Below are positions 2,978 through 22,435 of a stretch of DNA of 32,850 nt, one piece after another (position 1 is the first letter of the stretch; each line of letters opens with the position of its first letter). Source of the DNA: Desulfurococcales archaeon (lineage in GTDB: Archaea; Thermoproteota; Thermoprotei_A; Sulfolobales; Acidilobaceae); the NCBI GenBank assembly GCA_015521185.1, contig WAOS01000014.1:1-32850 (forward strand). The letters run 5' to 3'. The translations under genes and the position numbers were made by a program. The notes beneath the pieces are model-generated. The model worked only from the letters and a program-made list of their open reading frames with translations. It was not told where the DNA came from and did no database searches.

Positions 2978-4639
2978 ATTCTTCGCGCAGTATTCTTTTA
3001 TCGCTCGGGTCTCCGAGATTTTCCCGTTCTCAAGGTCCTCCCTCACCCTGTCCGGATTCCTAGTGCAGGGGTCGCCGTAGCCGCCTCCCCCGGGAGTGTT
3101 TATGACTATCGTGTCCCCCTCCTTTACAGTAATGGTTGCTATACAGCCTAGGGGCACGTTCTCTCCCGTGGGCCGGACTAGGTAGTGTGTGCTTGGCTCC
3201 GCCGGCTTACCCCCGTTGAGCCCCCACGGCCTGTGGCGGCACCTCTGCGCTACTATCGTTAGGGTTGCTGTTCCTCTTGTTAGCGTGAATGCCCTCGTTA
3301 TTCCTAGGCCGCCCCTATTCTGGCCGGGACCCTCGCTGTCCTCGCGAAGCTTGTACGCTTTGAAGAGGACGGGGTATTCGGCTTCTAGCCTCTCGATCGG
3401 GGTGTTCAGCGTGTTAGTCATATTGGTGTGGACCCCGTCCACCCCGTCGCTCCACGGCCTGCCCCCGCTCCCGCAACCAATCGTTTCGTAGAACGCCCAC
3501 CTCCTACCCTCGAGCAAGCCGCCTATCATAATGTTCGTCATAGTGCCGCAGCTCGCCGCTGGCACCCTGCCTGGCAGGGCTTTGGCGAGAGCCATGAATA
3601 CTGTATCGGCTATCCTCTGACTAGTCTCCGTGTTGCCCGCGCTGACGGGCGCCGGCTTCCTGGGGTTGACGAGTGTTCCCTCTGGCGCCACTATCCTTAT
3701 GGCCCGATAGAATCCCTGGTTAACAGGCATCTCGGGGTCGAGAATTGATTTGACGGCAAAGCTTGCCGCCGCTACTGTTACCCCGAGAACGGCGTTGAGC
3801 GGCGCGTCTACTTGGGAGCTTGTCCCCTCGAAGTCTATGGTTATCTCGTCGTCTCCTATAGCTAGCCTCGCCCTTATCTTTAGGTCTCCTCCGGGTAGCT
3901 CCACGTAGTCTTCCCCGGTCCACTCCCCCCTTACTCCGAGATCTCGTATGGTTCTTCGAACGTATCTCTCGGTGTAGTCCAGTATCTCTCTCCAGGCTTG
4001 TAGGAGGATCTCGCCCCCGTACCTTTCAGCTAGTTCTCTCAGTCTTCTCTCGCCAACGTTTAGCGATGCGAGCTGTGCTCTGAGGTCTCCGAGGGTGTAC
4101 TCGGGTGTTCTGACGTTAGCCGCGATAAGATCAAGTATGTCCCTGTTGATCACGCCTGAGGTGACGAGCTTGACGGGCGGTATTATTATTCCCTCCTGGC
4201 CGAGCTCCTTCACGTCGCCACCTAAGCTTCCGGGGACCGCTCCCCCAACGTCTACGTGGTGAGCCTTATTGGCGAGGTATGCTATGTGCTGGCCTTTATA
4301 GTATACGGGTTTGAGGAGTGTGATGTCATTTAGGTGCGTCCCCGTTATGTACGGGTCGTTCGCTATTATAACGTCTCCCTCGCCAAGCTCGATGCCTCTG
4401 GACCTGAGGTATGAGACTATGTTCTTGACACCAACGGTCATGCTACCTATGTGGACCGGTATGTGTTCGGCCTGGGCTACCAGGTCTCCCTCGGGCGTCA
4501 GTACGGCGCATGTGTGGTCTAGCCTATCCTTTATATTGGGGCTGTATGCGGTGTTTCTCAGGACTATACCCATCTCCTCGCTAGCGTATATGGCGGCGCT
4601 CTTGATGACCTCTACCGTCAGCTTGTCCGGGCTTGCCAA
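2966..4639 (-). CDS. hyuB: Hydantoinase B / oxoprolinase subunit
   Basis: This is the 557-residue B subunit of the hydantoinase/5-oxoprolinase/acetone carboxylase superfamily, which cleaves cyclic amides or carboxylates ketones in an ATP-dependent two-subunit enzyme. Family features are NTAYSPNIKDRLDHTCAV at the N-terminus, the metal-region IANDPYITGTHLNDITLLKP, NKAHHVDVGG, and a C-terminal TPGGGGYGDP loop. Length is normal (500-590). The start is TTG, preceded by GAGGTGA, a strong ribosome site that overlaps the stop of hyuA, so the two are translationally coupled with a 6-base gap. The substrate cannot be read from sequence: N-methylhydantoin, hydantoins, 5-oxoproline and ketones are all known in the family. 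Confidence 0.93.
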   Translation of the reverse strand: MASPDKLTVEVIKSAAIYASEEMGIVLRNTAYSPNIKDRLDHTCAVLTPEGDLVAQAEHIPVHIGSMTVGVKNIVSYLRSRGIELGEGDVIIANDPYITGTHLNDITLLKPVYYKGQHIAYLANKAHHVDVGGAVPGSLGGDVKELGQEGIIIPPVKLVTSGVINRDILDLIAANVRTPEYTLGDLRAQLASLNVGERRLRELAERYGGEILLQAWREILDYTERYVRRTIRDLGVRGEWTGEDYVELPGGDLKIRARLAIGDDEITIDFEGTSSQVDAPLNAVLGVTVAAASFAVKSILDPEMPVNQGFYRAIRIVAPEGTLVNPRKPAPVSAGNTETSQRIADTVFMALAKALPGRVPAASCGTMTNIMIGGLLEGRRWAFYETIGCGSGGRPWSDGVDGVHTNMTNTLNTPIERLEAEYPVLFKAYKLREDSEGPGQNRGGLGITRAFTLTRGTATLTIVAQRCRHRPWGLNGGKPAEPSTHYLVRPTGENVPLGCIATITVKEGDTIVINTPGGGGYGDPCTRNPDRVREDLENGKISETRAIKEYCAKNLGP

Positions 4640-4645
4640 CGCCTC

Positions 4646-6685
4646 TCACCTCTCCAGCTCGAGGGCTCCCAGCTCTGTGACTATGCCGTGGTAGCCTGGT
4701 GGTACGAGTATTGTCGAGTCTGGCGCTTCTATCACTGCGGGCCCCTCAACCCTGTATCCCTCGGCCATCGCGTTGTAGTCGTATACCGCGGCATTATGCC
4801 ACCCACCCTGGAAGAATACTTCCCTCTCGCCCTTGAGGGGGTCTCCGGCCTGCTTGGGTGCGCGTAGGAGCGGTTTTCTCGTTAGGCCGATCGCTTCGAC
4901 CCTAACGAGGACTATCTCAACGTCTTCCTCTTCAACTGAGAACCCGTATCTCGCAGCGTGAACCCTATGGAACTCCTCGAGGGTCCGCTCCACACTGCCC
5001 TGGTAGGGAACCCTTAGAGTGTAGGCTTGGCCCCAGTACTTTGCGTCCACGAGTCTCCGCGTTACTATGCTGCCGGGCTCGACCCCCCAGTCCTGGAGTG
5101 TGCGGACCGCCTCCGCCTCGAGTCGTGCTAGGACCCTCTCTAGCTCGTCATCGCTGATATCGCCGGCCCTTTTAGCTATCGAGGCATGCCTCTCCACCTT
5201 GTAGTCCGCCACTAGAAGGCCGAGAGCGCTGAACACTCCGGGCCTCGGCGGGACTAGCACGCGGGATACTCCAACCTCTGCCGCGAGCTCTGCAGCGTGG
5301 AGAGGGCCGGCGCCTCCGAAAGCGAAAAGTGTGAAGAGCCTCGGGTCGTGACCCCTCTCTAGGGTGACCAGCCTCACAGCTCTACCCATGACAGTGTTGG
5401 CGAGGCCGATTATCATCCAGGCCGCCTCTACTACGGTGACTCCTAGGGGCTTTGCTATCATATCGCGTATAGCCCTCCACGCTAGATCCCTCCTCAAGCG
5501 TATTCCTCCGGAGATGGTTTCTGGAAGCCTGCCGAGTACGAGGTTAGCGTCTGTTACCGTGGGTTCTGCTCCTCCCCGGCCGTAGCAGGCTGGGCCGGGG
5601 TCTGCGCCAGCGCTTTTGGGGCCTATCCTCAGGCCACCTCCGGGGTCGACCCAGGCTATCGTTCCTCCGCCGGCGGAGACTTCTGCTAGGTCTATATGGG
5701 GGAAGCGGACCGGGTAGCCGCTCCCCCTTATTACGCGGCCCATGTGAACTTTTCCGCCCACCTCGTAGGACTCTACTATCTCGGGCTCGCCACGTACGAT
5801 GCTGGAGGCCTTAGCCGTGGTCCCGCCCATATCGAAGCCTATGCTATACTCTATCCCGGCGAGCCTGGAGAAGTATGCGACCGCCACAGCTCCCGCGCTG
5901 GGGCCCGACTCTATGAAGGCCGCCGGCCTCTCCACGGCCTCTCCGACCTCGACTATGCCGCCGCTCGACTGCATAATGAGCAGCTTACCCTCGAAGCCCT
6001 CGCGGCGGAGCCTGGAGACAAGGTCTTCTAGGTACGAGGATAATACGGGCTTGAGGAGGCCGTTCACAACGGCGGTGCTCGTCCTCTCATACTCCATCGG
6101 CGCAGGGTCGACACGGCTCCCCGTGACAACGTAGGCGGTCGGGCACTCGTCCCTGATCGCTTCGGCAGCTTGTTCCTCGTGCGAGGGGTTCCTGTATGAG
6201 TGGAGGAATGATACTACGAAGACCCTCGTCCCCTCGGAGCACTCGCGAGAAGCCGCCTTCCTAACTTCTTCCACGTCCAGCTCCTCAATAACTCGGCCTT
6301 CACTGGTTATTCTCCCCCGAACACCGTAGCGCCTCTTCCTAGGGATGAGAGGTTTGGGCTTGCTGAAGTTGGGGTCGTAGAGGCTCGGCCTGTTCTGCCT
6401 CCCAATCTCTATGACGTCTTCGAAGCCCGCATTTGTTATTAGGGCTGCGCGGGGAGGCTCAATGCCTATCTGGCCAAGAAACATGTTGGTTCCGATCGTC
6501 GTGGCATGGATCAGAAGGTCTATTTTGACTAGTGGGCCCACAGCCATTCTTAGGCCCGCCAGTATCCCCTTTGCCGGCTCTCTCGGCGTTGTGGGAACTT
6601 TCATTATTCCGAGCTCGCTTGTTTCCTCGTTGAGAAACACTATGTCGGTGAATGTACCGCCGACATCGACGCCCACTCTATACAC
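4646..6685 (-). CDS. hyuA: Hydantoinase A / oxoprolinase subunit
   Basis: This is the ATP-binding A subunit that partners HyuB. The 679-residue protein begins with the ASKHA phosphate-1 motif VGVDVGGTFTDIVF. It continues with HATTIGTNMFL and the second ATP site IGFDMGGTTAKAS. The C-terminal hydantoinase A segment (AFGGAGPLHAAELA, VPPRPGVFSALGLL) is typical and complete. The start is GTG with GGAGG about 12 bases upstream. It is the first gene of a two-gene operon with hyuB and is divergent from the CDGSH gene across a 125-base spacer that should hold both promoters. The enzyme could use hydantoins, oxoproline or a ketone; context gives no further hint. Confidence 0.93.
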   Translation of the reverse strand: MYRVGVDVGGTFTDIVFLNEETSELGIMKVPTTPREPAKGILAGLRMAVGPLVKIDLLIHATTIGTNMFLGQIGIEPPRAALITNAGFEDVIEIGRQNRPSLYDPNFSKPKPLIPRKRRYGVRGRITSEGRVIEELDVEEVRKAASRECSEGTRVFVVSFLHSYRNPSHEEQAAEAIRDECPTAYVVTGSRVDPAPMEYERTSTAVVNGLLKPVLSSYLEDLVSRLRREGFEGKLLIMQSSGGIVEVGEAVERPAAFIESGPSAGAVAVAYFSRLAGIEYSIGFDMGGTTAKASSIVRGEPEIVESYEVGGKVHMGRVIRGSGYPVRFPHIDLAEVSAGGGTIAWVDPGGGLRIGPKSAGADPGPACYGRGGAEPTVTDANLVLGRLPETISGGIRLRRDLAWRAIRDMIAKPLGVTVVEAAWMIIGLANTVMGRAVRLVTLERGHDPRLFTLFAFGGAGPLHAAELAAEVGVSRVLVPPRPGVFSALGLLVADYKVERHASIAKRAGDISDDELERVLARLEAEAVRTLQDWGVEPGSIVTRRLVDAKYWGQAYTLRVPYQGSVERTLEEFHRVHAARYGFSVEEEDVEIVLVRVEAIGLTRKPLLRAPKQAGDPLKGEREVFFQGGWHNAAVYDYNAMAEGYRVEGPAVIEAPDSTILVPPGYHGIVTELGALELER

Positions 6686-6810
6686 TGTAGAGCACCGCCT
6701 CCGAGCAGCAGCAGGCCCGGGGGGTCCTGCTAAAACGGTAGCATAGCGAGAAGTATTAGCCTGTATTCATAGCGGTCCGCAGTATCTCTCATAAGTGGAG
6801 GAGAAGGCGT

Positions 6811-7086
6811 GTGGCGCGTGTCGTAGTCTACGAGGGTAAGGGGCCTGTCGAGGTTAAGCTTGTCGATGGGAGTATCGTTTGGCTTTGCGGCTGCGGTCTT
6901 AGCGTGACGTTCCCGTTCTGCAGCGGGAGACATATTCGCACGTATAGCGAGGATGACGATGGCATCTACGCTTATGACAGGGACGGTAACCTGCTGGGTA
7001 GGATTAGGAAAATAGTTTTGGAGGATGGCCGGGAAATAAGTCCGGAGTCCCTAGTTAGGGCTCGCTTAAGGGGGGAGGAGGCCTAG
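6811..7086 (+). CDS. CDGSH-type iron-sulfur protein
   Basis: This is a 91-residue protein with a mitoNEET-like 2Fe-2S binding motif, [16 protein letters not shown]. It matches C-x-C-x2-S-x3-P-x-C-x-G-x-H, giving the three-Cys/one-His cluster site; the usual D and S are replaced here (FCSGRH for CDGSH). The motif is near residues 27-42. An acidic stretch follows ([11 protein letters not shown]). There is no transmembrane segment, so it is soluble. The start is GTG, preceded by GGAGGAGAAGG. Known family roles are electron or cluster transfer. It is convergent with the ferritin-like gene and shares a CTAG with it, each strand using part of it as its stop codon. Confidence 0.85.
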
Positions 7087-11160: not shown

Positions 11161-12039
11161 CTAGACGGCGCTCGCGTCAAGCCTCTTACAGTGGTCTCTC
11201 ATTAGTATGGCATCCTCTTCTAATATTGGGCTCTCGCTTATTATGACTGCGTGTACCCCTGTCTCGAGGTATGCCTTACACACTATGTCCCACTCGGGCC
11301 CGTATTCTTCCTCCGAGAGGGTGTGGTGCTCCCGCTCTCCTCCAGGCCCGTATTCTATTTTCGAGAAGTGCGTGTGGAGCGGCCTGACTGCTCGGGTGCC
11401 AAGCTCTCTTTCGAACTTCTCTATAACGCTTATCACGTGGTCCACGCTGGTCACGAACTTGCCCTCGTATCTAGCGTATAGATGAGCCCAGTCTATGGTA
11501 GGCCTGCATCTCCTCCCTAGCCGCCTGCATATCTCTATGACTTCGTCAATATCTCCTATGGCTTGCTTCCTACCCATTACCTCGGGAGAGAGATCCGGCT
11601 TCTTAACCCACGCGGGCAGCCTGTTTAGGGCCTCCTCGTATCCCTTTATCGCGGCTTCGAGCGCCTCGCGCTTGTCATGGTATCCTTTGTAGTAGCCAGT
11701 GTGTATCACTACAGCGTAGGCTCCCATCCACTCGGCAGCCTTCATGGAGTCAATAATTCTTCTTATACTTGCCTCTCTCTTATCATTATCCTTGCTAGCA
11801 AGATTGATATAGTATGGCGCGTGTAGGCTGAGGACTACGCTGTTCTCCTTCGCTCTCTCGCCGAGTAGGCGGGCCTTGGCCTCCGAGATTCTCACGCCCC
11901 GTACAGCCTCATACTCCAGGGCGTCTAGCCCTATGGATCTTAGGAAGGCGGGGACGTCCTCCATCTTGCCTTTTTTCATGCTAATCGGCTTACCAGCTGG
12001 GCCGAACCATAATCGCTTCGCCAATTCTCTCCTCACCAC
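11161..12039 (-). CDS. nfo: Endonuclease IV family AP endonuclease
   Basis: This TIM-barrel DNA-repair enzyme cuts 5' of abasic sites and is zinc dependent. Metal ligands recognisable in order are His in LSLHAPYYINLAS, His in VVIHTGYYKG, Glu in LSPEVMGRKQAIGD, Asp/His in TIDWAHLYAR, His in LHTHFSKIEYG and Glu in IISESPILEEDA. Length (292) is normal. The ORF starts GTG-GTG; the family usually begins close to FGPAGKP, so a start up to six codons downstream (TTG) is possible. It follows the VWA operon by 48 bases on the same strand and may be partly co-transcribed. The role is base-excision repair, important at high temperature where depurination is fast. Confidence 0.88.
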   Translation of the reverse strand: MVRRELAKRLWFGPAGKPISMKKGKMEDVPAFLRSIGLDALEYEAVRGVRISEAKARLLGERAKENSVVLSLHAPYYINLASKDNDKREASIRRIIDSMKAAEWMGAYAVVIHTGYYKGYHDKREALEAAIKGYEEALNRLPAWVKKPDLSPEVMGRKQAIGDIDEVIEICRRLGRRCRPTIDWAHLYARYEGKFVTSVDHVISVIEKFERELGTRAVRPLHTHFSKIEYGPGGEREHHTLSEEEYGPEWDIVCKAYLETGVHAVIISESPILEEDAILMRDHCKRLDASAV

Positions 12040-12087: not shown

Positions 12088-12603
12088 TTAAGGGCCACAC
12101 CCGATCTTTCTAGCCAGCTCGGACTCCCCGAGCCTTCTCTTGTATATTATTTCCACGCCCGGATCGTAACGGTAGCTTCTAAACCATTTGGGTGGTCCGT
12201 ATTGGAGACCTACGACCCTTAGGCTTACGCCTACGCTATTGGCCATGGCCCTAGCATAGCTTACTGGTATCTTCGGCTTCTTAGGCATAGACCATAGTAG
12301 CACGAGCATGTCGCCCACGGCCGGCATTCCCGCCCTCTGGTAGAAGATAATTTCTAGCGCCTCTTTTACTGCCTTCACAGGCTCGGGGATACCTCTCATG
12401 GTTGCAGCACCCGCGAGCGCTTCTTCCAGCTGGCGGGGATCCCTTGTTCGTTCAATGACGGGGGCGGCTCTAGACGCGTATACTACGAGGCCGAATCCCT
12501 CGTGATCGGAAGCGCACCTCTCAGCGTTTTGCGTCACAAAGCTCCTCTGAAACTCGATGTATTGCCTGGCGCTCCGACTAATGTCTACAGCGTATATGAT
12601 CAT
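12088..12603 (-). CDS. VWA-domain protein, degenerate MIDAS
   Basis: This is a 171-residue cytosolic protein with a von Willebrand A-like fold. The metal-site motif DxSxS is present as DISRS (residues 7-11) after strand IIYAV. The third MIDAS element (TDG) is missing: its place holds LLWSMPKKP. A GLVVYAS strand and a GIPEPVKAVKEAL helix match the fold. There is no signal peptide or membrane helix. The start overlaps the stop of the preceding VWA gene (ATGA), so the two are coupled and the products may pair. It is the third gene of the RHH-PIN/VWA operon. Partner and function unknown. Confidence 0.75.
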   Translation of the reverse strand: MIIYAVDISRSARQYIEFQRSFVTQNAERCASDHEGFGLVVYASRAAPVIERTRDPRQLEEALAGAATMRGIPEPVKAVKEALEIIFYQRAGMPAVGDMLVLLWSMPKKPKIPVSYARAMANSVGVSLRVVGLQYGPPKWFRSYRYDPGVEIIYKRRLGESELARKIGCGP

Positions 12604-13151
12604 CTGGAGACGCCCCCGACTAGCTTTACGAGCCCGCTTGTGAGGTCCTCGTAACTGCCTACCTCGACCCAGTGGGCTATGTCTTTGTACTGATGATACG
12701 GTCCGGCGAGCTGGGTCTCCTCTATCTGGCCTATCACGAAGATGTAGAGGTCAACGCCGGACTGCTTCGCATATGATAGAGCGTATTCGAGGGGGACGCC
12801 CATGTTATAGTCTCCGTCTGTTATCACTGCTACTACCTTTTTGTGGTCGTGGAGAGCCCTCATAACCTTAACAGCCTCTACCACTGCATCTCCTGGGGCA
12901 GACCCCAGGAAGGTCCTTCCTAGAAGCCTAAGCGCCGAGAGGAAGTGAGAGATGTTCCTCGTTGGATATACGAGGGGGACTGCCCACTCCGCGAAAACTA
13001 CGAGACCCGTTTTAAGGCCCTCCTCTATTATTGCCCTCCTCGCGCTGATAGCAACAGAGTTTATGGAGGCTTGGAGCTTGCTCGGCTTGAAATTAGAGTA
13101 TATCTTGTCCATGCTTATTGATATGTCGAGAGCGTAGACCAGCGAGGGCAT
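12600..13151 (-). CDS. VWA-domain protein, intact MIDAS
   Basis: This is a 183-residue single-domain VWA protein without signal or membrane segment. The MIDAS parts are DISIS (DxSxS) near the N-terminus, LLGRTFLGSAPGDAV and VITDGDYNMG, so divalent-metal binding is likely. VWA domains mediate metal-dependent protein contacts; intracellular ones often act with AAA+ ATPases, but no MoxR-like gene is nearby. I choose the ATG at 13151 over the ORF-track TTG at 13169 because GGAGGTGA lies 7 bases before the ATG. That ribosome site overlaps the stop codon of the RHH-PIN gene, coupling translation. It overlaps the next VWA gene by 4 bases. Confidence 0.82.
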   Translation of the reverse strand: MPSLVYALDISISMDKIYSNFKPSKLQASINSVAISARRAIIEEGLKTGLVVFAEWAVPLVYPTRNISHFLSALRLLGRTFLGSAPGDAVVEAVKVMRALHDHKKVVAVITDGDYNMGVPLEYALSYAKQSGVDLYIFVIGQIEETQLAGPYHQYKDIAHWVEVGSYEDLTSGLVKLVGGVSR

Positions 13152-13156
13152 TCCTT

Positions 13157-13166
13157 GCTCACCTCC
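13157..13166 (-). promoter_or_regulatory. Strong Shine-Dalgarno site of VWA gene
   Basis: GGAGGTGAGC on the minus strand matches the archaeal 16S 3' end almost perfectly and sits 7 bases before the ATG at 13151. It decides the start and overlaps the TGA stop of the upstream gene. Confidence 0.75.
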
Positions 13167-13938
13167 CAAGATCCGTGAAAGCGCTAGGTGGTAGAATCAG
13201 TGGGACGCTCTTGAGGGAGTATACTATGTCAAGGGCTTCTGACGTGCTTATGAGCTGCCGAGCTCTCGCCTCGTAGAGTAACTCTACAGCACCGACTGTC
13301 TTGATCCCGAAGCCCTCGAGGGCTTCTCGAAGCCTCTGGTCTACCGTTAGCACCGGAATGTTGCACGTTTTAGCCGCGTTAACCGTCGATTTCTCCGCCT
13401 TGCTGAGAAGTATCTTAGAGTTAATCTTCTCCTTCATCCTCGCGCAGGGTTCTATAGCTTCGATAGCCAGAACATGGCGGAGGATCCCCTTATGAATTGA
13501 GTATGCCTCCCAGAGCCTCTGCTCGTTCTCTAAGTCAGCAGCCATGTAGAGCCGCGTTCCCCCCTCGCGCAGCTTCCACAGCAAGTTGCCCAAGTACGAC
13601 GTGTAGACGGTGAATAAGGCTGAGGGGGCTAGTAGTATCTGGTTGGGTATCTCCGTTCTGGCAGGCTTTTGACTGCTCCCTAGTAGCGGTACAGTCCCGT
13701 TCTCCAGGAAATACGATATAACTCTATTGCATGGCGAGTCTGTAAACTCGCATATGTAGCTCAGCGTTGCGTTGCCGGACCGGTAAAGCATTAGGCCTAT
13801 ATGGTGAAGGTCTAGCTCGTCCATGAGCCTCCTAAGCGCGTCTCTTACCGCCTCGCTAACACTAGCATATATCCCGAGATCTACTAGTCTGCGTAGTCTC
13901 TCCTCGAGCACCCCTGTTATATCGACGCTTACAACCAT
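13159..13938 (-). CDS. RHH / UPF0175-like / PIN-domain fusion protein
   Basis: This 259-residue protein looks like an antitoxin and a toxin in one chain. Residues 1-42 form a ribbon-helix-helix DNA-binding domain (VSVDITGVLEERLRRLVD, then ASVSEAVRDALRRL). Residues about 46-85 (HHIGLMLYRSGNATLSYICEF) resemble the UPF0175 antitoxin segment. From about 98 on it parallels the DUF3368/COG2405 PIN domain: LLAPSALFTVY, LSKAEKSTVNAA, VLTVDQRLREALEGFGIK and VGAVELLYEARARQLIS. Two of four expected acids are gone: the first Asp (LAPS for SDTS) and the first Asp of the LxDD pair. It may therefore be a regulator rather than a nuclease. First gene of a three-gene operon with two VWA genes. Confidence 0.7.
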   Translation of the reverse strand: MVVSVDITGVLEERLRRLVDLGIYASVSEAVRDALRRLMDELDLHHIGLMLYRSGNATLSYICEFTDSPCNRVISYFLENGTVPLLGSSQKPARTEIPNQILLAPSALFTVYTSYLGNLLWKLREGGTRLYMAADLENEQRLWEAYSIHKGILRHVLAIEAIEPCARMKEKINSKILLSKAEKSTVNAAKTCNIPVLTVDQRLREALEGFGIKTVGAVELLYEARARQLISTSEALDIVYSLKSVPLILPPSAFTDLGR

Positions 13939-14094: not shown

Positions 14095-17000
14095 TTACGG
14101 AGGAGTCCTTCCCCTCGAAATCACGCTCATAGCAACGATTGCGGCCAGCAGTACCACTATGCCGACGCTGGTCATAGTGGTGACTCTACCCTTCACGGCG
14201 TTGTTGCTCTCCTCTATCTTCTGCGAGAGGTCCTTGGTAGCCTTGTCGAGCTTCTGGGAGAGCGTGTTGTTCAGGTTGTCGATAGCGTTGAGTATCTGCT
14301 TGGTGTTGGTGCTCACCAGGTTGGTTAGGGTCGTGTTGAGCGACTTGGTCTCGTTGTAGAGCTCGCCTAGCTTTGCGGTAAAGGTCTTGTTTAGACTGTC
14401 AATGTAGCCCTCTATGTCCTCGGCCTTGGTGTTGATTAGTCCCTTGACGGAGGCGGCCTGGGTTCCGACCGCGGATATTATCTGGCTCTTGCTCTCGTTG
14501 ATGAGCATGCTTATGGCGTCTAGCTTAGTCATTGTCTCGTTCTGGAACATGCTTAGCCTGTTGCAGAGCCTCATGCCGAAGCTGGTCACGTTCGCGCTTA
14601 GGTTTGCTATGCTCTCTAGCACCTCCTCCTTAGCGACGCTTAGGTTGTAGGCTAGCATCTCATAGACAGCGTTTATAGTCGCGGTTATGTTGCCCTCGCT
14701 GGTCTTGATCTGCGCGATCAGGGCGCCGGTCTTGTTCTCGATTAGGCCTGTTAGGGTCGCGTTTAGGTTGTTGATGAGCTGGGTTATGTTAGCCTCCATG
14801 GTTCCTAGCTTGCTCAGTATTATCGCGGTGTTGTTGTCAACAGCGGTTATGAGCAGGCCTAGCTGCTCCAGAGTGGTGTTTAGCTTGATGAGTATCTCCT
14901 CGCCGTAAGCCTCTAGTGCTAGGTAGACCATTGCGATGTTGTTGTTGATCTCCTCGGTGCTATTTTCGATCTGCCTGCTTATGCTGTTGGTCGTGTCGAC
15001 GACTATGGTGAGGTTCGCATTGATCGCGTTGGCAAGGTTGATTAGCGCGCTTACATCAGCGTAGGTCTCGTTGAGAGTGTCGCTTACTACTACCAGCTTA
15101 CCGTTGATGCTCTCTAGCTTGAGGTTGAGGTTGTTGTAGACGTCGTTGATCAGGTTCTCGATCTCCACCTTTCCATTATTGACCTCAGTGATTACCTCGT
15201 TGAACAGGTCCTCTAGACTGCTCGCTACCGTCAGGCTGGTGAACGCCATGTCACTCTTGGGTATCATGAAGAACTTCGGCTGTACCTCAGCATATACCTT
15301 AATGAGCAGCTCGTCACCCTTCACGTCGGGCGTCACAGCGAACCTGTAGTGCCAGATGCCAGGCTCTCCAGTGTACTGCATCTTAGCGTTATCTAGGAGC
15401 TTCACCAGATTACCGCCGTCGTAGTAGTATACTGTTAGGTTGACCTCTATCTTGTGCGGCTTCACGGTGTCGTTATCGAGTAGCTGGCCACCTAGGTATA
15501 CAATTGCATACACGTCTACAGTGTCGCCTGGATAGGTTAGCTTTAGGGTGCCAGTGTAGACCTCAACCTTGACGTTCGGGGTCACGCTGTAGTAGATGTT
15601 GATTATCTCCTCGACAGTGTCGTTATAGTAGATTGTCAGAGTGTAGTTGCCGGGGCCATTGTCCTCTAGGAACTTACTTATGTTTGCGGTTATGTTGAAC
15701 GTACCATTTGCTGCAGTTGTGAAGGTCTCGCTGTAGCTGAGTAGCGTGCCGGTCTTATGGATTATGTAGCTTACAGTAGCGCTGCCCGGCCATCCATAGC
15801 CGAGCACTGTTACGTTCATTGCCTCTCCTAGGAATATCTGTAGCTTGTACTCTACTTTGCCGTTGAGTATAAGCTCGACTGGGTCAATAGCCCTCGCGGT
15901 TTCCCTAATGTATACTTCCTTACTGTGGCTACCATAGTAGGTTGTAGAGTCGTTGGCTACCACATAGTAGTCGCCGTATGGAGCCACTGGCACGTCGACT
16001 GTTCCCTTGAAGTAGCCGTTCGTGAAGGTTACGCTTGCAGCCTCCCAGTAGGTTGTATTGTCTGTGGTTATGCTTATGCTTCCACTGGTGAAGCTTACTC
16101 CTATTACCTCGACTGTGAAGTTTGTTTCGGCATAGTCTGGAAGCTGGTCCTTCCAGGGTGTTGCGGCCGGGTATGCAGGTGTCGCAGGAATCTGGTCTAC
16201 TCTGGCTGCGTCGGGGGTGAACCCGTAGCCGGTCAATAGTAGTGGCGCCGGGTTCACGAAGACCTTGTATACGCTGCCGTCGAGCACGAAGTTGAATGGC
16301 TGCGTGCTGAAGCCTCTGTTAGTTGTTGTTGTTCCGTGGGCGCTGAAGTGGAACGGGCTGTTGGCCGGGTCGACGTCTGCAGGTATCTGGAATAGGCTGA
16401 AGAACGTTCCATTGTCGTAGACGTGTATGCTGTCTCCTCCGCTTATGTCGGCTATGAACTTTAGGGTGGCCACGTCTGCTCCGCCGTAGAATATGGTCGC
16501 GGTTATGTTCTCATTCATGAATCCGTGTCCCTTGATCAGCACGTAGTCTCCGGGCGCAGTATTAGTGGTCTCATAGAAGTTGCCGAAGGTGCCATCGTTC
16601 TTGACTAGGGAGATCTCAAGGTACGGGTGTACTACTATGATGGATGGCCCGCTTGTTACAGTGGCGTTGGTAGCGGGCAGTCCCCTCACGTTGTCGCCCT
16701 GCTTCGCTACTACGAAGAACTGCCTACCTCCATACTGTGCTTCTGGCAGCGTTACTGTGACTGTAGCGTTGCCATATGTTGTATCCACGGTCGCGCTAGT
16801 GTCTATCTGGACTAGCTTACCGTCCCCGTACACGAATAGGCATATGTGGACAGGGTTAGTATTGCTTACGAAGTTGTACAGCTTTACGGTTATCTGGTCG
16901 CCTGGGTTAATCTCTGTAGTATTCCCAGCTACCTCAGTGTAGCCTGTTAGCTCAACGCTCGGGAATATGTTCATAGTCTTGCCTAGGCTACCTATGTTAA

Positions 17001-17916
17001 TGGTTATCTCGGGTATCGTGACCGTGCCTGGCACGTCCGAGAACTCGTGCTGTCCTGTCGTATAGTTGTAGGTAACGTTTATGGCATTGTTGAATGTCTC
17101 CTTGAACTTCTTAGCCTGGAACGTGAAGTTGAAGGACGCATAAGATACAGGTATGCCCTGGACCGTAATCTGAGCGTTTACTCCGCCCAGCGCGAAGTCC
17201 TTGAGAGTACCATTAATCTTGGCTACCGTTGTGGTTATTGTGCTGCTGTTAATGTTGTCTAGAATATCGCTCTTCCAGGTTGTGGTGTTAGTGACGGTCT
17301 GGTTGAAGAGCTCTAGGCTCTCGATGTTGTTATACAGGAGTATTGTGAAGTTCTGCGTGGTCAGGTCTATTGTTGGCGCTATGGTGGATATGTCCACGGT
17401 TAGGTTAAGCGTGTTGTTGGTCTCTATTACGGTGTCGGTGTAGCTTGTCTTCGATAGGTTGTAGGTATTCGCCTTGAATATCTCGGATACATTGGTTACC
17501 ACGTAGAACCTGTTGCTTGCCGCCACGTTAGACCCGTCAGTCACCTTGATGTAGAGATAACCGCTCTCACCACCTAGTAGCTTGTTTACTACAGTATTGT
17601 TGATGTACAGATATCCGGCTATGTAGTCAGCGTCAGCTATGTAGATTCCCCTGACTAGGAGCAGGTCGCTTACGCCGGGCTGGATATTTCCGTATCCGTT
17701 GTTGCTAACGTAGATGTCGGCTGTGGTTCCTACCCAGCCGAACGTGTTCTTTAGGTAGGTTAGGTTCACGTAGAAGTATACGGTATTGTTCATGCTTACT
17801 ACTTCGGTTATTACTGTTACTCCTGTGTCTGTTGCTGCTACGGGCACACTTGGAGCGTAGGCTAGTGCCATGAGCGCTACCATGAGTGCCGCGAATACTA
17901 TCTTTGCCGCGTTCAT
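14095..17916 (-). CDS. S-layer glycoprotein with long coiled-coil stalk and membrane anchor
   Basis: This is a giant surface protein (about 1270 residues). I take the ATG at 17916, which gives an 8-base spacing from GGAGG instead of 2 bases for the ORF-track ATG. A signal peptide (AAKIVFAALMVALMALAYA) is followed by about 870 residues of Thr/Asn/Tyr/Val-rich beta domains with many N-x-S/T sequons. Then comes a helical stalk (residues about 902-1247 of the ORF numbering) and a transmembrane helix (VGIVVLLAAIVAMSVI) with a short basic end. The stalk has hydrophobic positions spaced 4-3-4, repeating every 11 residues, as in the tetrabrachion coiled coil. It likely forms the main S-layer, held roughly 50 nm off the membrane. 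Confidence 0.85.
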   Translation of the reverse strand: MNAAKIVFAALMVALMALAYAPSVPVAATDTGVTVITEVVSMNNTVYFYVNLTYLKNTFGWVGTTADIYVSNNGYGNIQPGVSDLLLVRGIYIADADYIAGYLYINNTVVNKLLGGESGYLYIKVTDGSNVAASNRFYVVTNVSEIFKANTYNLSKTSYTDTVIETNNTLNLTVDISTIAPTIDLTTQNFTILLYNNIESLELFNQTVTNTTTWKSDILDNINSSTITTTVAKINGTLKDFALGGVNAQITVQGIPVSYASFNFTFQAKKFKETFNNAINVTYNYTTGQHEFSDVPGTVTIPEITINIGSLGKTMNIFPSVELTGYTEVAGNTTEINPGDQITVKLYNFVSNTNPVHICLFVYGDGKLVQIDTSATVDTTYGNATVTVTLPEAQYGGRQFFVVAKQGDNVRGLPATNATVTSGPSIIVVHPYLEISLVKNDGTFGNFYETTNTAPGDYVLIKGHGFMNENITATIFYGGADVATLKFIADISGGDSIHVYDNGTFFSLFQIPADVDPANSPFHFSAHGTTTTNRGFSTQPFNFVLDGSVYKVFVNPAPLLLTGYGFTPDAARVDQIPATPAYPAATPWKDQLPDYAETNFTVEVIGVSFTSGSISITTDNTTYWEAASVTFTNGYFKGTVDVPVAPYGDYYVVANDSTTYYGSHSKEVYIRETARAIDPVELILNGKVEYKLQIFLGEAMNVTVLGYGWPGSATVSYIIHKTGTLLSYSETFTTAANGTFNITANISKFLEDNGPGNYTLTIYYNDTVEEIINIYYSVTPNVKVEVYTGTLKLTYPGDTVDVYAIVYLGGQLLDNDTVKPHKIEVNLTVYYYDGGNLVKLLDNAKMQYTGEPGIWHYRFAVTPDVKGDELLIKVYAEVQPKFFMIPKSDMAFTSLTVASSLEDLFNEVITEVNNGKVEIENLINDVYNNLNLKLESINGKLVVVSDTLNETYADVSALINLANAINANLTIVVDTTNSISRQIENSTEEINNNIAMVYLALEAYGEEILIKLNTTLEQLGLLITAVDNNTAIILSKLGTMEANITQLINNLNATLTGLIENKTGALIAQIKTSEGNITATINAVYEMLAYNLSVAKEEVLESIANLSANVTSFGMRLCNRLSMFQNETMTKLDAISMLINESKSQIISAVGTQAASVKGLINTKAEDIEGYIDSLNKTFTAKLGELYNETKSLNTTLTNLVSTNTKQILNAIDNLNNTLSQKLDKATKDLSQKIEESNNAVKGRVTTMTSVGIVVLLAAIVAMSVISRGRTPP

Positions 17917-17923
17917 GGTCATA

Positions 17924-19906: not shown

Positions 19907-22435
19907 TTAGGGAGATGCCACGCTTACCGCGTTAACCAACACGAGGTTGCTCTCATGACTATACATTCCGTCAGCCCCGCTCTTAAGGTACTGAAGCCAG
20001 TAGCCGTCTAACGCGCTGAATAGGAATACCCAATTCTCCTTGCCGGGCGCGTCGTATACAGCGATTGTGGCGCCCTTTATGCTCCATCCGAACCATGAGT
20101 ATACCGCTATCTTGCCTAGCACCTCCACGTTTGCATCGTCGGTGAAGCTCACATACACGTAGTCGGCGTACTGGCTGTTAGCAGTGTCAACGAGGTAGTA
20201 GTGCCCATCTATCCCGTTGTATATCGGGTGGTCCTTATTGACAACATAGACTGCTACGTAGGTGTCATAGGTGTACCCGTAGTCCCTAGTGTCGGGGGCT
20301 GGGTAGCCAGCCTTCTCTATATCGGCGGAGTAGGCATACATTATGTATCCCATAGTGCCTTTACCCTCGTATGCACCGTCAAGTATGACTAGTCCTATGT
20401 CATGGCTGTCCACGTAGGATAGGAAGTTGAGCACGGCGTTCTTATCGGGGAGACTGTCTCTGTTGTTCTGGTCCCAGTAGTTTACTACAACAACCTTAAC
20501 GTCCGGGCCAGCGTGAGAGAGGAAGCTCTCAACACTATCATACGCTACCACGTTATAACCGTTGTTCTGGAGCAGGGTGATTATGTTTCCTGCAGGATCC
20601 CCTATCACTGCAACTTTGTTGCCCGGCTGCGTCTGCACGGGCTGAAGGGCGAAGTCAGCCCGCACGGTCTCTCCTTCGCCCACGCTCACAGTCTTGCTCT
20701 GAGACTCATACCCGCTAGCCTCGGCTGTCACGGTGTACGTGCCGGGGTCGACTGTTACCTCGTAGTAGCCGTTGGAGTCGGTGGTCACGCTGCCCACTCC
20801 CTCCACAGTCACAGTGGCCCCACTAATCGGCTGCCCAGTTGACTGGTCCGTCACGTAGCCGTAGATCTTGCCGGGCTGCGGCTGGGGCTGCTCTCCACCT
20901 CCTCCCCCGCCGCTACCGCCGCCGTAGTTCTGCAGAGCGTAGGTTACAGCCTCGTACGCATCAATTCTCCCATAACCGTATTCCGTGTCCTGGCCGCTTG
21001 CTCCTAGGTCGACTGCCGTTTTGGTTAGTGCCTCGTAGATTTTCTCCGGCGTGTCGGGCACGCTCCAGTTGGTCCAGCCCAGTGCTGATAGTATTAGGGC
21101 TACTGTGCCTGCGACGTGCGGGGTCGCCATGCTAGTTCCATCCCAGGAGGCATACCCACCGTTTGGCGTGGAGCTCGTTATGCCGACGCCTGGAGCGCTA
21201 ACGTCGGGCTTGATGTACTGGCTCGGGTAGGTGTCGTAGAACGGCCAGTCGCTAGGTATAGACTGGTAGTGTACTACCTCACCGCTGCTAAAGCTAGCAT
21301 GGTTATCATTCTGGTCGACTGCGCCTACACCTATTACTCCCCATATGTTGCCGGGGTTACTACTCGTTCCTTGGCCCTCGTTTCCTATTGCTGCTACTAT
21401 AACTATGTTTGCTTCTAGTGCTGCCTTCACAGCGTCTAGAAGATAGTCTCCATAGTAACCGTCAGCTCCGAGGCTCATTGATATTACATGGGCGGGATAG
21501 TTAGTTGGGTTACCGTTACAGTCGTAGGGGTTCACCGCCCACTCTATGCCCGCGAGAACGCTTGCGAAGCTCCCGCTCCCTCCGGGCAGGACTAGGGCGT
21601 GCATGAGCTTCGCCTGAGGGGCGACGCCGATAACAATATTGCTGCCGTCACCGCCGAGCACAGTCCCGCTCACATGGGTCCCGTGCTCTCCACTATCGTG
21701 GGGCTGAGAGCACACTGGGTTTCCATTGCTATCGAACTCTATCCAGCCCCCGGGATAGTAGCTGTTCCCGGGATCGATAGTGAACATCTTCCCCTGAAGG
21801 GCGGGGTGGCTTATGTCGACTCCAGTGTCTAGTACCGCAACCCTTATTCCCTGGCCCATGTCGTTGTAGTTCTGCCACACATCTGGAGCCCTAATCTTGT
21901 AGATTCCCCAGCTCTCAACGGTGCTCTGGGGCTCGACTGATACCTCACTCTTGAGACCGTCTAGGTCCAGCGCTTTAACCTCAAAATTAGGTATTATTTT
22001 CTCTACATAGGGCATACTAGCGAGTATGTATAGGGTTAGAAGGTTACCCCTAACGACCATTGCATTTACTATCCAGAACTGCCTGAGGACCTCGCCTCCA
22101 GTTGCAGCTATCAGAGGCATAGCCTGCAGCTGGTACGGTCTAACGGAGCTCTTGAGAGTCTTAGCGAGTTCTTTAGGCGTGTAGTGCTCTCCCTCCGGTA
22201 GAACAGGTTTCTTCAGTAGAACTACGAATGTCACGCTGCCCTCGGAGATAGCCTCTTTTATAAGTTTAGGATCAATCTTCGAGTAGTACTGGAAGTAGTA
22301 GGGACTCGTGCTTGGCACAGGACTAGCTGCAAATCTTTGGGATGCTCCAGATGCTATAGGGGCTGCTATCATAACTAGTATGAGAACAAGCGCGAATACC
22401 GGGCTTCTCACGAGTTTCACCCACACATGTCCCAC
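19907..22435 (-). CDS. Secreted subtilisin-like serine protease, multidomain
   Basis: This 842-residue S8 protease is exported (signal FALVLILVMIAAPIASGA). An inhibitor-I9-type propeptide spans about 65-155. The catalytic triad is D203 (VAVLDTGVD), H251 (HGTHVSG) and S435 (DGTSMATPHVAG), with N352 as oxyanion residue (AAIGNEG). A Gly/Gln/Pro linker (about 505-525) leads to a carboxypeptidase-regulatory-like beta domain (GKIYGYVTDQSTGQPISGA). A C-terminal domain (605-842) follows, with flavodoxin/GATase-like alternation (VAVIGDPAGNIITLLQNNG). There is no C-terminal anchor, so it is released or held by other surface proteins. The start is GTG; a TATA-like ACATATATACTG at 22461-22472 predicts a near-leaderless mRNA. 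Confidence 0.92.
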   Translation of the reverse strand: MGHVWVKLVRSPVFALVLILVMIAAPIASGASQRFAASPVPSTSPYYFQYYSKIDPKLIKEAISEGSVTFVVLLKKPVLPEGEHYTPKELAKTLKSSVRPYQLQAMPLIAATGGEVLRQFWIVNAMVVRGNLLTLYILASMPYVEKIIPNFEVKALDLDGLKSEVSVEPQSTVESWGIYKIRAPDVWQNYNDMGQGIRVAVLDTGVDISHPALQGKMFTIDPGNSYYPGGWIEFDSNGNPVCSQPHDSGEHGTHVSGTVLGGDGSNIVIGVAPQAKLMHALVLPGGSGSFASVLAGIEWAVNPYDCNGNPTNYPAHVISMSLGADGYYGDYLLDAVKAALEANIVIVAAIGNEGQGTSSNPGNIWGVIGVGAVDQNDNHASFSSGEVVHYQSIPSDWPFYDTYPSQYIKPDVSAPGVGITSSTPNGGYASWDGTSMATPHVAGTVALILSALGWTNWSVPDTPEKIYEALTKTAVDLGASGQDTEYGYGRIDAYEAVTYALQNYGGGSGGGGGGEQPQPQPGKIYGYVTDQSTGQPISGATVTVEGVGSVTTDSNGYYEVTVDPGTYTVTAEASGYESQSKTVSVGEGETVRADFALQPVQTQPGNKVAVIGDPAGNIITLLQNNGYNVVAYDSVESFLSHAGPDVKVVVVNYWDQNNRDSLPDKNAVLNFLSYVDSHDIGLVILDGAYEGKGTMGYIMYAYSADIEKAGYPAPDTRDYGYTYDTYVAVYVVNKDHPIYNGIDGHYYLVDTANSQYADYVYVSFTDDANVEVLGKIAVYSWFGWSIKGATIAVYDAPGKENWVFLFSALDGYWLQYLKSGADGMYSHESNLVLVNAVSVASP

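Follow-up and report, generated by a model that had tools for sequence, protein, structure and literature searches.

A single-chain RHH-UPF0175-PIN protein and its VWA partner in the neighborhood of archaeal surface-layer genes

By domain family, the closest described relatives of the protein analyzed here, P1, are type II toxin-antitoxin (TA) systems of the VapBC kind. P1 is encoded, together with two proteins of the von Willebrand factor A (VWA) fold, P2 and P3, on the minus strand of a 32,850-nucleotide stretch from a Desulfurococcales archaeon of the Acidilobaceae (assembly GCA_015521185.1, contig WAOS01000014.1, positions 1 to 32,850), hereafter referred to as the window. P1 shares with VapBC the ParD/ribbon-helix-helix (RHH), UPF0175 (COG2886, for which a PIN partner has been described, PMC2701414) and VapC-like PIN domain families, but differs in being one chain instead of two genes, in having fewer acidic PIN residues, in its chromosomal location and vertical inheritance, and in its obligate VWA partner. 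Antitoxin and toxin are likewise covalently joined in EzeT (PMC4826407), whose toxin, however, is an unrelated zeta kinase and whose hosts are E. coli and its relatives. The archaellum regulators ArnA and ArnB of the Sulfolobales (PMC6509490) provide an example from the Thermoproteota of a cytosolic VWA protein that, together with a second protein, controls the gene set of a surface structure; in contrast to P1 and P2, the partner in that system is an FHA protein, not an RHH-PIN protein, and ArnB has a C-terminal region, whereas P2 is a VWA domain of about 183 amino acids alone. P2 has its closest match among solved structures in BatB and thus resembles the MoxR-VWA systems of the BatA/BatB type, but has neither an adjacent MoxR gene nor membrane helices. 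We know of no VWA partner of EzeT. A literature search found no paper joining RHH, PIN and VWA, the VWA papers that it listed dealing with other systems; the combination is unusual, as remarked in an initial annotation of the window. Finally, the genes next to P1 resemble the tetrabrachion/STABLE locus of Staphylothermus, where tetrabrachion and its subtilase and their roles have been described (PMC5744192), in that a tetrabrachion family gene and a gene of the subtilase family lie side by side, although S. marinus lacks P1-P2 at this position. Little is known about the control of the most abundant surface protein of archaea, a question that an obligate pair of an RHH-UPF0175-PIN and a VWA protein beside tetrabrachion genes makes accessible to testing.

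The gene of P1 (13159..13938, minus strand, with the ATG at 13938 and the stop at 13159) encodes 259 amino acids, which comprise an RHH domain (residues 1-42), a UPF0175-like helical segment (residues 43-87) and a VapC-like PIN domain (residues about 99-259). P1 of the window matches the NCBIfam model of ParD-family antitoxins (E=4.1e-6), and a Pfam scan of 32 P1 orthologs returned UPF0175 in seven (best 2.1e-6), a PIN family in eight (best 9.9e-12) and RHH/VapB models in several. Similarly, the profile of the P1 family matched ParD antitoxins and the PIN protein 1o4w when compared to solved structures. An AlphaFold2 model of P1 (predicted local distance difference test, pLDDT, 90.3; predicted template modeling score 0.82) has its best folds in the PDB among VapC-like PIN proteins, with a target-normalized template modeling score of about 0.65 and E-values of only 0.005-0.05, so that the PIN assignment leans also on the sequence profiles. 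All P1 orthologs are one chain of about 259 amino acids, and never occur as two separate genes. The single-chain architecture read from the sequence in the initial annotation is well supported: P1 begins with an RHH/ParD-like part, continues with a UPF0175-like segment and ends in a VapC-like PIN domain.

P1 and P2 form an ancient obligate pair, as is well supported by their distribution. P1 orthologs were identified at strong scores in 57 of the 229 genomes of the class, and 55 of these have P2 directly downstream on the same strand, mostly at distances of -32 to +30 bp; in the remaining two, the contig stops within or just past P1. P2 alone was found in one genome, at a contig end. An apparent loss of P2 at the loci L026, L054 and L059 turned out to be an artefact of open reading frame (ORF) choice, and genome G016 (L026) has P2 by direct search. 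The P1 records span Acidilobaceae, Desulfurococcales, Staphylothermus, Caldisphaera, Hestiella, Pyrodictiaceae and metagenome-assembled genomes (MAGs) of Marsarchaeota, and full-length P1-P2 is normally present as one chromosomal copy per genome. The trees of P1 and P2 are congruent: none of 999 permutations reached their Mantel r of 0.78, and 31 of the 42 splits occur in both. The patchy occurrence, including on plasmids and viruses, that marks VapBC systems as mobile is not seen for P1-P2, of which no relatives were found on viral contigs or plasmids.

P2 (also V1; 12600..13151, minus strand) is a cytosolic VWA protein of 183 amino acids with an intact metal ion-dependent adhesion site (MIDAS; DxSxS, Ser/Thr and ITDG), the residues of which are kept across the P2 family. 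It matches Pfam VWA at 6.6e-8, and apart from BatB its profile also matched Rpn10 and TFIIH p44. The most likely start is the ATG at 13151, as a ribosome-binding-like GGGAGGTGA, which overlaps the stop of P1, lies 7 nucleotides ahead of it. Early searches with the P2 family used 12600-13142, and hence lacked the first three residues, with no material effect. P3 (also V2; 12088..12603, minus strand; 171 amino acids) is only weakly recognized by sequence (VWA_2, 0.005), but structure prediction yielded a VWA fold (pLDDT 90.8, best E 3e-9). Its MIDAS is degenerate, and this holds for the P3 family as a whole, in which the final TDG motif is replaced by W-S and DxSxS is mostly gone, indicating that P3 is not a metal-binding VWA protein. 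The two metal-dependent cytosolic VWA proteins of the initial annotation are therefore reduced to one, while both VWA folds stand, and hydropathy shows P1, P2 and P3 alike to be devoid of membrane helices. The three ORFs lie where they had been placed, and P2 and P3 share a 4-bp ATGA overlap at 12600-12603; P1 and P2, however, most likely do not overlap as had been assumed but are 7 bp apart with the ATG at 13151, an 11-bp overlap resulting only if a TTG at 13169 is taken mechanically as the start. The genes of P1, P2 and P3 are translationally coupled.

P3 is confined to part of the range of P1-P2 and is a lineage-specific addition outside the core. The gene order that had been proposed for checking across related genomes is conserved for P1-P2. 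At the loci L025, L027, L030, L031 and L032, which represent several genera, P3 faces P2 from the opposite strand in convergent orientation, and is therefore not always a member of the operon. Other lineages have an extra P2-like VWA gene in the place of P3; it flanks P1-P2 upstream in L078 and on the opposite strand in L105 and L087, indicating that paired VWA genes recur. As stated in the initial annotation, a MoxR partner is missing: the MoxR-type AAA+ genes of this genome reside on other contigs, and none adjoins P1-P2-P3. One of them lies less than 2 kb from a different VWA gene, on contig C46 of this genome (G000; at about 15.6-17.8 kb).

The most informative feature of the locus, which the initial annotation had missed, is its surface-layer (S-layer) gene neighborhood. 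Upstream of P1, at a distance of 156 bp, is the gene of a secreted tetrabrachion-type S-layer protein of 1275 amino acids (c2; 14095..17922, minus strand) with a signal peptide, a beta-rich region, a coiled coil, a C-terminal membrane helix and 49 N-glycosylation sequons. In general, c2 proteins are very large and possess a signal peptide, a Thr/Asn-rich region, a coiled coil, a C-terminal membrane helix and a short basic tail. A STABLE-protease-like subtilase (c3; 19907..22435, minus strand) follows 5968 bp upstream of P1 in the window, and in other genera this family sits between the S-layer gene and P1. Among the 31 genomes with a visible flank, a count that leaves out L022 and L041 (contig ends), c2 and/or c3 are close upstream of P1 in 23. 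Three upstream layouts occur: c2 precedes P1 in tandem, the subtilase lies between the two (c2-subtilase-P1), or c2 and P1 are divergent. In family f13, c2 lies downstream of the pair. As only one to a few c2 relatives are detectable per tested genome, the adjacency of c2 and P1 is not due to chance. In Marsarchaeota, P1-P2 is followed by a different, conserved protein with a signal peptide and a C-terminal membrane helix (L106:6894-7823; L107:1364-2254); L107 also has a divergent gene for a secreted protein of 1020 amino acids upstream (3953-7015).

The identity of c2 was settled by way of a closed genome (locus L114), which we take to be that of Staphylothermus marinus F1. While a direct PDB search with c2 of the window gave no match to tetrabrachion, the c2 profile matches a 1527-amino-acid ORF of S. 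marinus at 3e-42, and blastp of the window protein against this ORF yielded E=6e-9 in the beta region. As the ORF includes the crystallized coiled coil of tetrabrachion, c2 is assigned to the tetrabrachion family. In S. marinus (L114:6758-11341), the tetrabrachion gene and the neighboring genes c6-c9-c11 are divergent, with no P1-P2 in between, whereas at L040, L045, L048 and L049 it is exactly P1-P2 that fills this gap, along with a transferase in L040. L052 shares this layout, with c11 beyond view. The Staphylothermus-type genus g30 comprises two closed genomes, only one of which has the module, and offers a natural comparison.

A regulatory role, as already suggested in the initial annotation, is still the best reading of the locus. 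We tentatively favor the view that P1 is a VapBC-like regulator in one chain that has been domesticated and works with a VWA partner, and that its main target is probably the S-layer gene set; control of the surface layer is the most economical reading in the light of the gene neighborhood. According to this scenario, a VapBC-type pair would have collapsed, its ParD/RHH-like and UPF0175-like antitoxin parts being fused to the PIN nuclease, and would have been kept as a chromosomal regulator. P1 might form dimers by way of its RHH and PIN parts, and its ligand might be nucleic acid, either operator DNA or, if the PIN part still cuts, transcripts. P2 is envisaged to dock onto P1 via its metal-dependent MIDAS face and to switch or position it, and P3, as a VWA protein without MIDAS, may complete the assembly in the lineage of the window. 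From the neighboring genes we infer that the main target would be the genes of the tetrabrachion-type protein and its subtilase. The locus would then exemplify a TA pair that has become a stable chromosomal factor made of one chain and has gained a new protein partner; P1-P2 ranges from Marsarchaeota to Desulfurococcales-type families. It is less likely, though a fair possibility, that the pair acts as a class-wide signaling device, in which a fused TA that lost its killing role, with the MIDAS VWA protein as a switch, serves as a dedicated regulator of S-layer genes; this would be the first known S-layer control system in these organisms, and our search of the literature found no regulator of the tetrabrachion locus.

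Several observations weigh against S-layer control by P1-P2. An acidic residue (E6/D6) is nearly invariant in the RHH strand of P1, which is odd for a strand contacting DNA, and clade alignments of the region upstream of P1 revealed no recognizable common palindrome or operator; both findings count against a simple role in DNA binding. S. marinus possesses tetrabrachion without P1-P2, so the module is dispensable for having an S-layer. In the genera g5 and g11, including MAGs of Caldisphaera and Hestiella, the pair is remote from S-layer genes and has ribosomal-protein, ATP-synthase or metabolic genes as its neighbors, and the adjacency of c2 and P1 may in part be inherited synteny. The last two points lend themselves to a different explanation, which we regard as a serious possibility: P1-P2 might be a general factor of RNA metabolism or cell regulation, such as a housekeeping ribonucleoprotein or a transcription regulator, that stays near S-layer genes by synteny from one ancestral locus, possibly consisting of just c2-P1-P2-c6-c9. 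PIN and VWA domains are common in RNA and protein-complex machines, and the matches of P2 to Rpn10 and TFIIH p44 would fit such a role. However, the link to the S-layer gene has outlasted rearrangements (in tandem, via the subtilase, divergent and downstream), and the neighbor in Marsarchaeota is an unrelated surface protein; both speak against this explanation.

Whether P1 might instead be a working toxin depends on its PIN domain, the active site of which was aligned across the 32 P1 orthologs, window copy included. E182 and D200 are invariant. At about residue 104, where the first PIN strand ends (beta-1 active-site region, 13623..13632, minus strand), 27 of the 31 other orthologs have Asp and four, those from Marsarchaeota, have Glu; only the window copy has Ala. 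Position 199 is Asp or Glu in 30 sequences, Cys in one and Val in the window. By inspection, the family has no clearly conserved equivalent of the second canonical PIN acid, and three sites (D/E104, E182 and D200) are kept in place of the four of VapBC toxins. The PIN site of the P1 family is thus partly eroded, which fits a domesticated regulator, and A104 together with V199 suggests that the window copy has probably lost nuclease activity, although an assembly error is conceivable. A working, auto-inhibited single-chain TA system similar to EzeT (PMC4826407), in which the PIN domain is silenced in cis by the antitoxin part and is released or held by the VWA protein when stress, for instance damage to the envelope, is signaled, would fit the joining of antitoxin and toxin domains in one chain and the acids conserved at positions 104 (save for the window copy), 182 and 200. 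Such a system is nevertheless improbable, given that the second acid is not clearly conserved, the window copy lacks acids at 104 and 199, and the pair is vertically inherited and normally single-copy, with no mobility found.

Even less probable is a role in cytoplasmic biogenesis or quality control of the S-layer, in which S-layer protein would be bound by P2 and P3 while nascent or before secretion, and P1 would couple this binding to mRNA turnover. VWA folds bind proteins, and the linkage to very large secreted proteins is recurrent, Marsarchaeota included; however, the cluster has no secretion or chaperone partner, and the pair is absent from S. marinus. A mobile TA or defence role is unlikely, and the defence module considered in the initial annotation, here as an anti-virus or abortive-infection device beside the S-layer, where viruses attach, is the least credible of all: PIN effectors and VWA domains are found in conflict systems (PMC7159879), and the S-layer genes are near, but PADLOC models gave no match at the locus, and the module is inherited vertically across families, as indicated by the congruent trees, normally in a single chromosomal copy and with no viral or plasmid relatives found.

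Downstream of P3, the window encodes a xylose isomerase-like TIM barrel protein of the AP (apurinic/apyrimidinic) endonuclease 2 superfamily (11161..12039, minus strand), the gene of which is syntenic after P3 in several genera. An apparent grouping of this endonuclease-like TIM barrel with P1 was an artefact of single-linkage clustering. In several genera, a longer run is kept after P3 (10221-12039 in the window), which consists of the AP-endonuclease-like TIM barrel gene, a gene for an unknown protein of 110 amino acids and that of a putative RNA methyltransferase (PF04013).
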